This document shows positions 13,677-18,800 of a stretch of 64,000 nt of DNA, piece after piece (the stretch's first letter is position 1; each line of letters starts with the position of its first letter). The DNA is from Ralstonia pickettii (GTDB lineage: Bacteria > Pseudomonadota > Gammaproteobacteria > Burkholderiales > Burkholderiaceae). The position numbers and the translations under genes are program-made. The stretch spans positions 124,001 through 188,000 of the forward strand of contig NZ_MCGB01000025.1 in assembly GCF_001699815.1 (NCBI RefSeq), written 5' to 3'. Below the pieces are notes generated by a model. That model did not search any database and was not told where the DNA came from. It worked only from the letters and a program-made list of their open reading frames with translations.

Positions 13677-14180
13677 GTGACGCTCAAGCGATGCTTTCCG
13701 CCCGTGGTCGACGCGCACACGCGCGTGCTGATCCTGGGCAGCCTGCCCGGTGAAGCATCGCTTGCGCAATCGCAGTACTACGCACACAAGCAGAACCAGT
13801 TCTGGCGCCTGGTTGGTGAGGTCATCGGCCAGGACCTTGCCGGCATGGAGTACGGCGCGCGCCTGCAAGCATTGCTCGCCCATCGCCTCGGCTTATGGGA
13901 TGTGGTGGCCGAGGCCAGGCGCGAAGGCAGTCTCGACAGCAAGATCCGGGACCACGCTGGCAACGACCTCTCCAGCTTGATTGCCTCGTTGCCAAACCTG
14001 GCGGTGATTGCCTTTAATGGCGGCACGGCCGAGCGCATCGGCTTGAAAGCGCTCGGCTCGCATGGCGGCAGTTATCGGATTGTCCGGCTCCCCTCCAGCA
14101 GTCCGGCGCATACGATGCCGTACGCGGAAAAACTGCATGCTTGGCGCGAGTTGGAGTCATGGCTCGGTAAAGCTGACTGA
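13677..14180 (+). CDS. DNA glycosylase of the uracil/hypoxanthine-DNA glycosylase superfamily (family 6 type)
   Basis: 167 residues starting with GTG. The signature of family-6 (HDG-like) UDG-superfamily enzymes is present: 'ILGSLPGEASL' followed by 'QYYAHKQNQFW' near residues 18-43, and 'RLPSSSPAH' near 142. Such enzymes excise deaminated bases (hypoxanthine, sometimes uracil). The gene is complete, but from residue ~39 on it has a second, diverged copy at 17321-17701. The 19-bp stretch at 13794-13812 is identical to 17321-17339, so this gene looks like an old 5' half joined to a 3' end brought by the insert that follows. The joint does not disturb the frame or known motifs. Confidence 0.82.
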   Translation: MTLKRCFPPVVDAHTRVLILGSLPGEASLAQSQYYAHKQNQFWRLVGEVIGQDLAGMEYGARLQALLAHRLGLWDVVAEARREGSLDSKIRDHAGNDLSSLIASLPNLAVIAFNGGTAERIGLKALGSHGGSYRIVRLPSSSPAHTMPYAEKLHAWRELESWLGKAD

Positions 14181-17287: not shown

Positions 17288-17701
17288 TTGCTGCCCAGGT
17301 GTCAAATTAACCAAAATATCAACCAGTTCTGGCGCCTGGCCGGCGAGGTGATCGGCCAGGATTTACCGGGCATGGAATACGCCGCGCGTTTGCAGGTGCT
17401 GCTTGCGCATCGCATCGGCCTGTGGGATGTGGTGGCCGAAGCCAAGCGCGAAGGCAGTCTCGACAGCAAGATCCGGGACCATGCCGGTAATGACCTTGCC
17501 GGCTTGATCGCCTCTTTGCCGGAACTGGCGCTCATTGCCTTTAACGGCGGCACCGCGTCGCGCATTGGCGTAAAGGCGCTGGGCGACATCGGCGACCGCC
17601 ACACCATCCTCAAACTCCCTTCCAGCAGTCCGGCCTATGCAGCCGTGCCGTATGCCCAGAAGTTGGCGGCGTGGCAAGCGCTGCGTGAGTGGCTGTCGTA
17701 G
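17288..17701 (+). pseudogene. N-terminally truncated DNA glycosylase copy (resident 3' end left by the insert)
   Basis: Residues from 'NQFWRLAGEVIGQDL' to 'LKLPSSSPAY' align along the whole C-terminal three quarters of the intact glycosylase at 13677-14180. The N-terminal part with the catalytic 'GSLPGEASL' motif is missing. The first in-frame start is a TTG at 17288 that would add ~11 unrelated residues. A faint trace of the missing motif may remain near 17285-17303. The stop at 17699-17701 lies only 7 bp from the probable original end of the convergent PilJ-like gene, suggesting this is the ancestral position of the glycosylase 3' end. Not expected to be active. Confidence 0.8.
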
Positions 17702-17779
17702 CTTCCCGCTACCTGGTCTGCCCTTCGTACAAGCCGGTCACGTCATCCATCATCTGAAGAATGCGCTCGCTGGTTGCGA

Positions 17780-18511
17780 TCAGCGCAGCGACATGTGCCC
17801 GAAGGTTTGCGATGCCGGCGTCGATGGCCGGCGCGTGCCGGCGCCGGACTGGCCGGCGTCGTTCGTGCCGACGACATTGCGGATCAGTTGGTCCATCTCC
17901 TGGATGATGTCTGCGAGCACCGTCGTGATGACCGAGAACTCGCGCCCGTAAGGACCCGCCCGCGCCGCGGAGACGCGCGCGTTCATGGCGACGATGTTGG
18001 CCTGCATCGAGATGCGGCCAAGGTGCGTGGCGATGTCCGCCTGACGCTTGCGCAGTGCGACTTCGCATACGTGCATTTCCTCCTGGTACGCCTGCGTGAT
18101 GGTCTGTAGCAATTCCAGCATGGGCGTGGCCTGCGCGACGAGCGCATCGAGCGACGGGTTGCGGTGGGTCGTGCCGGTCGACAGGGTATCGATGGCGCTT
18201 TTGGCCAGCGCGATGAACTCGCGGACGCGAGCATCGCCGCGCAGCTTGCCCGAGTACAACTGACGCAATGCCTCCGAGAACGCGCCGGGCAACCGCGCAT
18301 TGCCGTCCACAAGTTCGGTGTGTGCCGACGCGAATGTCGCCAGGCACGATCGTGCGATGTCGAGCGCGGCGGTATGACCCTGAGCCGCCAATACCATTTG
18401 CAGCACGATCCGCTGTGACAGCATGCGCTGCCGTCCGGACAGGTTGATCAGCTCACCAATGGTCTCGACGGACACATCGGCCGCGGAAGCCGGGAAGGAG
18501 GGAGCGTTCAT
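17780..18511 (-). CDS. PilJ N-domain / chemoreceptor-tip-like soluble protein, probably frameshifted near the C-terminus
   Basis: 243 residues as read. Residues ~20-130 match the PilJ-type N-terminal domain ('LINLSGRQRMLSQRI'), which also forms the input module of NarX-like nitrate sensors. Residues ~165-215 resemble a methyl-accepting chemoreceptor hairpin tip ('ANIVAMNARVSAARAGPYG'). No membrane helix is seen. Around 17826-17842 the native frame seems to be lost: the next frame continues with a plausible helical end ('LIATSERILQMMDDVTGLY') to a stop at 17709-17711, so one base is probably missing in a GC-rich run. The ATG at 18511 is used; upstream lies a leader with an attenuator-like structure. 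Nitrate-related sensing is inference. Confidence 0.7.
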   Translation of the reverse strand: MNAPSFPASAADVSVETIGELINLSGRQRMLSQRIVLQMVLAAQGHTAALDIARSCLATFASAHTELVDGNARLPGAFSEALRQLYSGKLRGDARVREFIALAKSAIDTLSTGTTHRNPSLDALVAQATPMLELLQTITQAYQEEMHVCEVALRKRQADIATHLGRISMQANIVAMNARVSAARAGPYGREFSVITTVLADIIQEMDQLIRNVVGTNDAGQSGAGTRRPSTPASQTFGHMSLR

Positions 18512-18559: not shown

Positions 18560-18704
18560 AAAAAAAACGCCCCGAAGCGAGACGGCGACGCACCGGTTGC
18601 CGGGGACGTGCCGTGTCGCCTCGGAGCGCCGTTGCCCCGGACGCTCCTGTGCGGAGCGCGTTATCGCGAAGTGCCAAGGTAGATCAAGGCCGCCGTTGGC
18701 CTTG
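18560..18704 (-). promoter_or_regulatory. ANTAR-type attenuator leader: two AACGGC hexaloop hairpins plus exclusive terminator
   Basis: Read on the minus strand. Hairpin P1 (18704-18685) is CAAGGCC-AACGGC-GGCCTTG. Hairpin P2 (18639-18622) is CGGGGC-AACGGC-GCTCCG, with one G-U pair. Both have the same six-base loop with A at position 1 and G at position 4. A terminator follows: arm CGCTCCGAGGCGACACGGC (18628-18610) pairs with GCCGTCTCGCTTCGGGGCG (18586-18568) in 18 of 19 positions and is followed by eight T (18567-18560). The 5' arm of the terminator overlaps the 3' arm of P2, so the two cannot form together. This is the known layout of ANTAR antiterminator targets (nasF, ami and eut leaders). 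The gene start is 49 nt downstream. A further hairpin (CGCTCC-GCACA-GGAGCG) lies between P1 and P2. Confidence 0.7.
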
Positions 18705-18800
18705 TCCTTGCCGATGCAATAGCCATGCCACGCAAGAGAGGCCGGCGGGCCCGTCGATCCGCACACGCCAAGAGGTTCTGCCGCACTAATCTCGTGCCAG

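Follow-up and report, generated by a model that had tools for sequence, protein, structure and literature searches.

The leader in front of a PilJ-domain gene of Ralstonia pickettii, on the minus strand from 18704 to 18560 of the window (the whole stretch of 64,000 nucleotides that was analyzed), is very probably a transcription-antitermination switch of the NasT type, and binding of NasT to it is predicted. The first-pass annotation had read an ANTAR-type leader at this place. That reading is supported by the architecture of the leader, its conservation, the covariation of the P1 hairpin and the terminator, the promoter site, the presence of one NasT-like protein and of two other leaders in the genome, and the association of related genes with nitrate genes. 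The features are as follows:

18783–18797, minus strand: NtrC-like site, a sequence match to GCAC-N7-GTGC
18716–18730, minus strand: sigma-54 promoter-like site (−24/−12), TGGCATG-GCTA-TTGC
18685–18704, minus strand: P1 hairpin, CAAGGCC-AACGGC-GGCCTTG, with the hexaloop AACGGC at 18697–18692; its first base is the predicted transcript start
18641–18659, minus strand: middle hairpin of the linker, with a loop of non-A1/G4 type
18622–18639, minus strand: P2 antiterminator hairpin, CGGGGC-AACGGC-GCTCCG, with the hexaloop AACGGC at 18633–18628
18568–18628, minus strand: intrinsic terminator stem-loop, with the 3' arm of P2 inside its 5' arm
18560–18567, minus strand: terminator U-run, eight T
17780–18511, minus strand: PilJ-domain gene of 243 aa, coding for a nitrate-sensor-like helical bundle with a P-box, followed by a short chemoreceptor-like hairpin

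Architecture of the leader
P1 and P2 are present on the minus strand exactly as the first-pass annotation had quoted them, and the 45-nt gap between them does contain an additional hairpin, at 18659–18641. The terminator had been described as a stem of 18 pairs. Its eight T and the arm in common with P2 hold, whereas the outer stem consists of 13 contiguous pairs and the number 18 is reached only when pairs further inward are counted. As the fold is read, P2 and the terminator are mutually exclusive via the common arm. The leader region folds with a z of −4.38, better than all of 200 shuffles. In a search of the whole window for two A1/G4 hexaloops 15–80 nt apart on stems of at least 6 bp with an overlapping terminator, the combination was found once on both strands taken together and in none of 30 shuffled windows. 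In contrast, lone A1/G4 hexaloops are frequent by chance (17 and 20 per window strand vs 15.4 per shuffled strand), and the bare loop pattern is uninformative across the genome, with 266 and 275 matches per strand where the reversed pattern has 183 and 206.

Conservation and promoter
Relatives of the gene were taken from 20 loci of named genomes and from a family-wide set of 299 genomes, of which 49 had a match at E 1e-25 or better, giving 70 upstream regions including that of the window, of which 58 are unique. The sigma-54 site, P1, and P2 occur together in 45 of the 58, and 43 of these 45 also have the U-run; the script for leader elements demanded A1/G4, and loop invariance among the 45 is thus partly built in. 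P1, P2, and the terminator are found again, with compensatory substitutions, in Ralstonia, Cupriavidus, Pandoraea, Paraburkholderia, and further relatives. A lack of conservation of the two loops in orthologous leaders, named at the outset as an outcome that would speak against the ANTAR reading, was therefore not what was seen.

Across the 43 leaders with a U-run, 92.3% of the cells of P1 and P2 together are paired, and 7 of the 13 pairs have changed on both sides. P1 shows such changes in 6 of its 7 pairs; P2 covaries little, with 95.7% of cells paired and both sides changed in one of six pairs. In the 13 outer pairs of the terminator the values are 95.5% and 8 of 13, and P1 and the terminator combined reach 93.4% and 14 of 20. 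Neither the P1 plus P2 nor the P1 plus terminator values were reached by any of 500 shuffles.

The full set is absent in 13 of the 58 regions. Six of these (L119–L124) form a diverged narK-PilJ group without the leader, and the other seven (L020, L023, L024, L026, L029, L089, and L105) have damaged, shifted, or missing elements. In L020 and L089 the P1 loop is damaged and the U-run is broken too; L029 and L026 have lost P1, yet retain P2, the terminator, and the U-run; in L023 the leader is mostly deleted. Two further leaders, L100 and L109, keep P1 and P2, but the U-run was not seen and P2 lies close to the gene start, and their regulation may differ.

The motif TGGCAY-N5-TTGC is found in 50 of the 58 unique upstream regions (shuffle mean 0.18) and GCAC-N7-GTGC in 26 of them (shuffle mean 1.68), four of which have it at a distant upstream place, between −473 and −492. 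By the NtrC consensus, GCAC-N7-GTGC is an NtrC-like site. From the start of the promoter element to the P1 loop there are 32–34 nt in 43 of the 45 full-set leaders, 36 nt in L100, and 38 nt in L109. With the usual sigma-54 spacing, the first base of P1, at ~18704, would be the transcript start. The first-pass annotation had named a start downstream of 18560 as a second finding against its reading; the conserved site at 18730–18716 makes this unlikely. Judged by sequence, the presence of both sites would place the leader in the NtrC/sigma-54 nitrogen regulon. The promoter site fits the consensus TGGCACRNNNNTTGCW given in PMC4371752, where Ralstonia solanacearum requires rpoN1 for growth on nitrate and a sigma-54 site is predicted for its nitrate-assimilation operon. 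Moreover, an ntrC mutant of Burkholderia cenocepacia has lower transcription of nasT and nitrate genes (PMC5491218).

Covariance models
R1, a covariance model made from 33 leaders from outside the genus of the window, scores the window leader at 73.7 bits (E 2e-13) as the sole strong match in the genome; the runner-up reaches 22.1 bits (E 0.097), with 150 of 6762 candidates scored. In the family, R1 leaders were found in 111 of the 299 genomes, all of them among the 219 with an ANTAR match and none among the 80 without, in a survey with strict filters and 15 candidates scored per genome, in which many of the ANTAR-less genomes are small and kinship makes the genomes non-independent. On the other hand, Rfam models at their gathering scores have no match in the window, and the best-fitting one, narK RNA RF03032, reaches 21.6 bits, under its cut-off of 43.2. 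As read by eye, RF03032 resembles the window leader in its sigma-54 element and in its P1 loop AACGGC, which is followed by a P2, and differs in the short linker of the model. Low-scoring matches of the Rfam models ncS16, dauA, and Ms1 in the leader were dismissed as chance or as a common terminator shape. In the same reading, the RF03032 consensus runs from a −24/−12 sigma-54 element through the P1 loop to a P2 loop AAAGAC, and this "RNA" seems to be in part a DNA promoter element.

NasT and the other leaders of the genome
The first-pass annotation had proposed to test the genome for NasT-like ANTAR proteins, and one was found: it is the single ANTAR match, at 74.2 bits, and its receiver domain reaches 20.7 bits, under the cut-off of 30.2. 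The genome has at least three ANTAR-type leaders, located upstream of the PilJ gene, of nrtABC, and of a narK-type gene. The second of these, between nasT and nrtABC (G000:C82, L030), scores higher with the Rfam narK model than any other place in the genome, at 33.2 bits, which is also sub-cut-off. The third, at L163 1473–1620 (G000:C92), is the R1 runner-up, whose score is not significant; it is taken as a real leader because of its context. A promoter site TGGCATACCTGTTGC is followed by a hexaloop AAAGGC with 3 bp in its stem, a middle hairpin, a P2 whose loop is AACGGC, and a terminator, and the next gene, at 299.7 bits where the cut-off is 311.7, is of the NarK family.

A total of 21 nasT neighborhoods were examined (L030 and L142–L161). 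In ten, from other lineages, an NrtA-like gene of 45–49% identity stands right after nasT without nrtB or nrtC directly behind it, and this gene is read as a putative NasS. In another ten, from Ralstonia and the Cupriavidus-like group, nasT is followed by a gap and then by nrtABC, and the remaining one, L155, has only a partial nasT match. No NasS-like gene was seen right beside nasT in these Ralstonia and Cupriavidus-like loci (L030, L142–L144, L152–L154, and L156–L158). In the genome of the window, only the NrtA encoded in the nrtABC operon behind nasT matches NMT1_2 strongly (349.6 bits; the next has 102.2). The idea that the PilJ protein generally substitutes for NasS is weakened, since only 49 of the 219 ANTAR-positive genomes have it; seven genomes from the genus of the window have an ANTAR match and no PilJ gene match.

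Proposed mechanism
Under nitrogen limitation, NtrC and sigma-54 would start transcription at ~18704, as the promoter site suggests. Without active NasT, the RNA would fold the terminator and stop near 18560. When nitrate is present, NasT would become active and bind the hexaloops of P1 and P2; with P2 held by NasT, the terminator could not form and the PilJ gene would be transcribed. The NasT steps are modeled on the ANTAR mechanism as established for NasR, EutV, and NasT. In addition, the middle hairpin may shorten the 45-nt linker in such a way that both hexaloops are reachable.

Linker and middle hairpin
The leader shares two A1/G4 hexaloops, a P2 that overlaps the terminator, and an ANTAR protein in the genome with the dual-hexaloop leaders of Klebsiella nasF (NasR), Pseudomonas amiE (AmiR), and Enterococcus eut (EutV) (PMC3369931, PMC8934654). 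It differs from them in its PilJ-domain, sensor-like gene and in its 45-nt linker, which holds a middle hairpin. The eut leaders have linkers of 5–12 nt, and induction is drastically reduced at 3 or 14 nt (PMC3369931), while the addition of 20 nt to the linker abolished antitermination by EutV (PMC8934654). The window leader, which thus falls outside the eut subtype, is likely a long-linker variant of the ANTAR leader, since eut leaders have short linkers and lose much or all of their function when these are lengthened. The published search model for ANTAR targets permitted a variable linker (PMC3369931).

The first-pass annotation had called the long gap unusual. This stands against the eut leaders, but not among the nearer relatives, as the gap is common to the other PilJ leaders and to the three narK leaders that were read. 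The distance between the P1 and P2 loops is 58–65 nt in 43 of 45 leaders, with L014 (43 nt) and L016 (72 nt) as the others; the narK leaders L148 and L160 are of the long form too (59 and 67 nt), as is the narK leader of the genome of the window (55 nt), all three with a plain middle hairpin. A hairpin folds in all 43 aligned linkers. In the 40 distinct ones the mean fold z is −1.76, with z of −1 or lower in 29 and not in 11, an advantage over shuffles that is no more than moderate. Between the end of the hairpin and P2 there are at most 4 nt in 29 linkers and 6–14 nt in 11, and in none of the 40 does the hairpin carry an A1/G4 hexaloop. Read by eye, some leaders of Ralstonia and of the Paraburkholderia-like group suggest a competition of the middle hairpin with P2, its 3' arm pairing with the 3' arm of P2; others do not, and the idea was dropped.

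The NasT-linked nrtABC leaders of Ralstonia and the Cupriavidus-like group have the sigma-54 site, P2, and terminator in common with the window leader. In the Cupriavidus-like nrtA leaders, the outer hexaloops are 61–62 nt apart, as in the window leader; unlike it, they have a hexaloop on the middle hairpin. Three hexaloop hairpins were found by script in four of the five, and in the fifth, L143, the middle hexaloop was read by eye on a 3-bp stem. The Ralstonia nrtA leaders (L030, L142, and L152–L154) have two hexaloops only, 22 nt apart, and in L030, the one in the genome of the window, the linker is 1 nt, in contrast to that of the PilJ leader.

Alternative readings of the leader
Several points weigh against the NasT switch. 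A linker of 45 nt lies far beyond what EutV tolerates, the Rfam narK score is sub-cut-off, 13 of the 58 regions lack the full set, and P2 covaries little. An alternative is an ANTAR leader that acts via P2 alone, with P1 stabilizing the 5' end of the transcript, and the long linker would then require no explanation. The position of P1 at the predicted first base agrees with it, as do the narK leader with its mere 3-bp P1 stem, the retention of P2 and terminator without P1 in L029 and L026, and the minimal EutV site, which is a single hexaloop (PMC8934654). However, the P1 stem covaries while its A1/G4 loop is kept, damage to P1 coincides with a broken U-run in L020 and L089 (L029 and L026 do not fit this pattern), and PMC8934654 has EutV contacting each hexaloop as a necessity for preventing termination; action via P2 alone is therefore improbable. 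That the leader is an ordinary intrinsic terminator with incidental hexaloops is very improbable indeed, since for all the strength of the terminator and the chance frequency of lone hexaloops, P1 lies outside the terminator yet covaries and retains its loop, similar loops stand before nrtA and narK, and every genome in which R1 found a leader has an ANTAR match. The NasT-type switch is thus retained as the preferred reading.

Gene neighborhoods
Within the DNA fetched, the neighborhoods of 57 unique loci besides the window were read. A narK-type gene lies 3' of the PilJ gene in 17 and 5' of it in six (L119–L124); in 18, a second PilJ gene with a hydrophobic start, checked as such in L087 only, comes next; the remaining 16 have none of these neighbors. 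In G412 the PilJ gene stands in an operon-like row nrtA-nrtB-nrtC-porin-PilJ-cobA-nirB-narK, and in G472 it is immediately behind nrtC. In L119–L124 the PilJ gene is diverged (34–40% identity) and a sigma-54-like site precedes narK; hexaloops and a terminator were looked for before this narK and none were seen. Downstream genes were also read for 20 hand-picked R1 matches, 17 of them from genomes without a PilJ match, and a narK-type gene stands directly behind the leader in 16. The other four are followed by a PilJ 3' fragment, cobA, a FocA/NirC-like frame, and nothing recognized. At L169 (G136) the PilJ 3' fragment is all that follows the R1 leader, and the FocA/NirC-like frame, by our reading, is at L185 (G250).

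The PilJ gene had been placed outside a nas operon. This holds for the copy in the window, which is alone because the second PilJ gene of other Ralstonia and Cupriavidus-like loci is cleanly gone at 17776–17780 (~750 bp relative to L012). It does not hold for its relatives, which in part of the loci adjoin narK or sit within nas operons. The gene is therefore less foreign to the regulon than had been thought, and fits best among the genes of nitrate assimilation. Two similar DNA-glycosylase-like reading frames lie at 17288–17701 and 13677–14180 of the window. The first is without its N-terminus and begins at a stretch (~17299) that recurs in L018, in L029, and elsewhere in the genome (L033), and that may be an insertion-sequence end.

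The PilJ-domain protein
The PilJ-domain protein expected behind the leader was confirmed. PF13675 reaches 39.9 bits (cut-off 26.6), and the protein has no strongly hydrophobic stretch (1.31 on a 19-residue scale, where 8 of 61 relatives reach 1.6). The glycine of its P-box G-x-x-R, G26, is kept in 58 and the arginine, R29, in 60 of 61 proteins. In structure prediction (mean pLDDT 76.8) the protein forms a bundle of helices, the last of which extends into a hairpin that turns at ARAG. Fold comparison gave Z of 14.5 with PilJ, 14.4 with NarQ, 13.4 with NasR, 12.9 with McpN, and 11.4 with NarX, on a scale where unrelated helical bundles can reach 13, so that these matches accord with a bundle of this kind but fall in or close to the chance range; Foldseek gave no match for the predicted structure at E 0.001 or better. 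The G-x-x-R P-box is common to NarX, NarQ, and McpN (PMC8199190, PMC6381276). The window protein shares this box with them and is predicted to be a helical bundle too, and differs in having no evident membrane span and a shortened output hairpin. It is tentatively seen as a cytoplasmic nitrate/nitrite sensor that is made together with the genes for uptake and reduction and would signal through a shortened chemoreceptor-like hairpin; this assignment is quite possible but stays short of probable.

That the protein is a genuine chemoreceptor passing nitrate signals to the chemotaxis array, which is compatible with the leader reading, is rather unlikely. Residues 155–215 align with the tip region of Tsr, N177, R184, G189, and F192 are invariant in 61 of 61 proteins, and the turn of the predicted hairpin would also suit a receptor. 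However, the MCP signaling domain scores 34.0 bits, under its cut-off of 34.6, over profile positions 34–80 (47 of 172), the residue matching Tsr E385 is variable, and the lack of a strongly hydrophobic stretch also argues against a receptor, as do the transport genes found by the neighbor search, which was aimed at them. Any role of the protein in chemotaxis or in feedback on NasT is speculative. Beyond the cytoplasmic sensor, a combined reading has a distinct Burkholderiaceae class of long-linker ANTAR leaders, in which the middle hairpin, at the place of the third hexaloop of the Cupriavidus-like nrtA leaders, would bridge P1 and P2, and in which the PilJ protein as a cytoplasmic nitrate sensor could feed back on NasT where no NasS is seen beside it, as in Ralstonia and the Cupriavidus-like group. 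Taken with all its parts, it is unlikely.

Significance for the nitrate regulon
Neither the leader nor the gene of the window is named in the titles and abstracts found, subscription journals being mostly outside the search. A supplementary legend of PMC3369931 mentions a putative ANTAR target where a methyl-accepting chemotaxis gene begins, and this target may be related. The leader would add a sensor-like gene to the nitrate antitermination regulon. Together with its relatives it makes up a natural set of leaders with a common promoter, P2, and terminator, in which the linker is 1 nt, carries three hexaloops, or is ~45 nt with a middle hairpin. Because the rule derived from EutV forbids a linker of such length, the handling of two hexaloops by an ANTAR dimer becomes directly testable.
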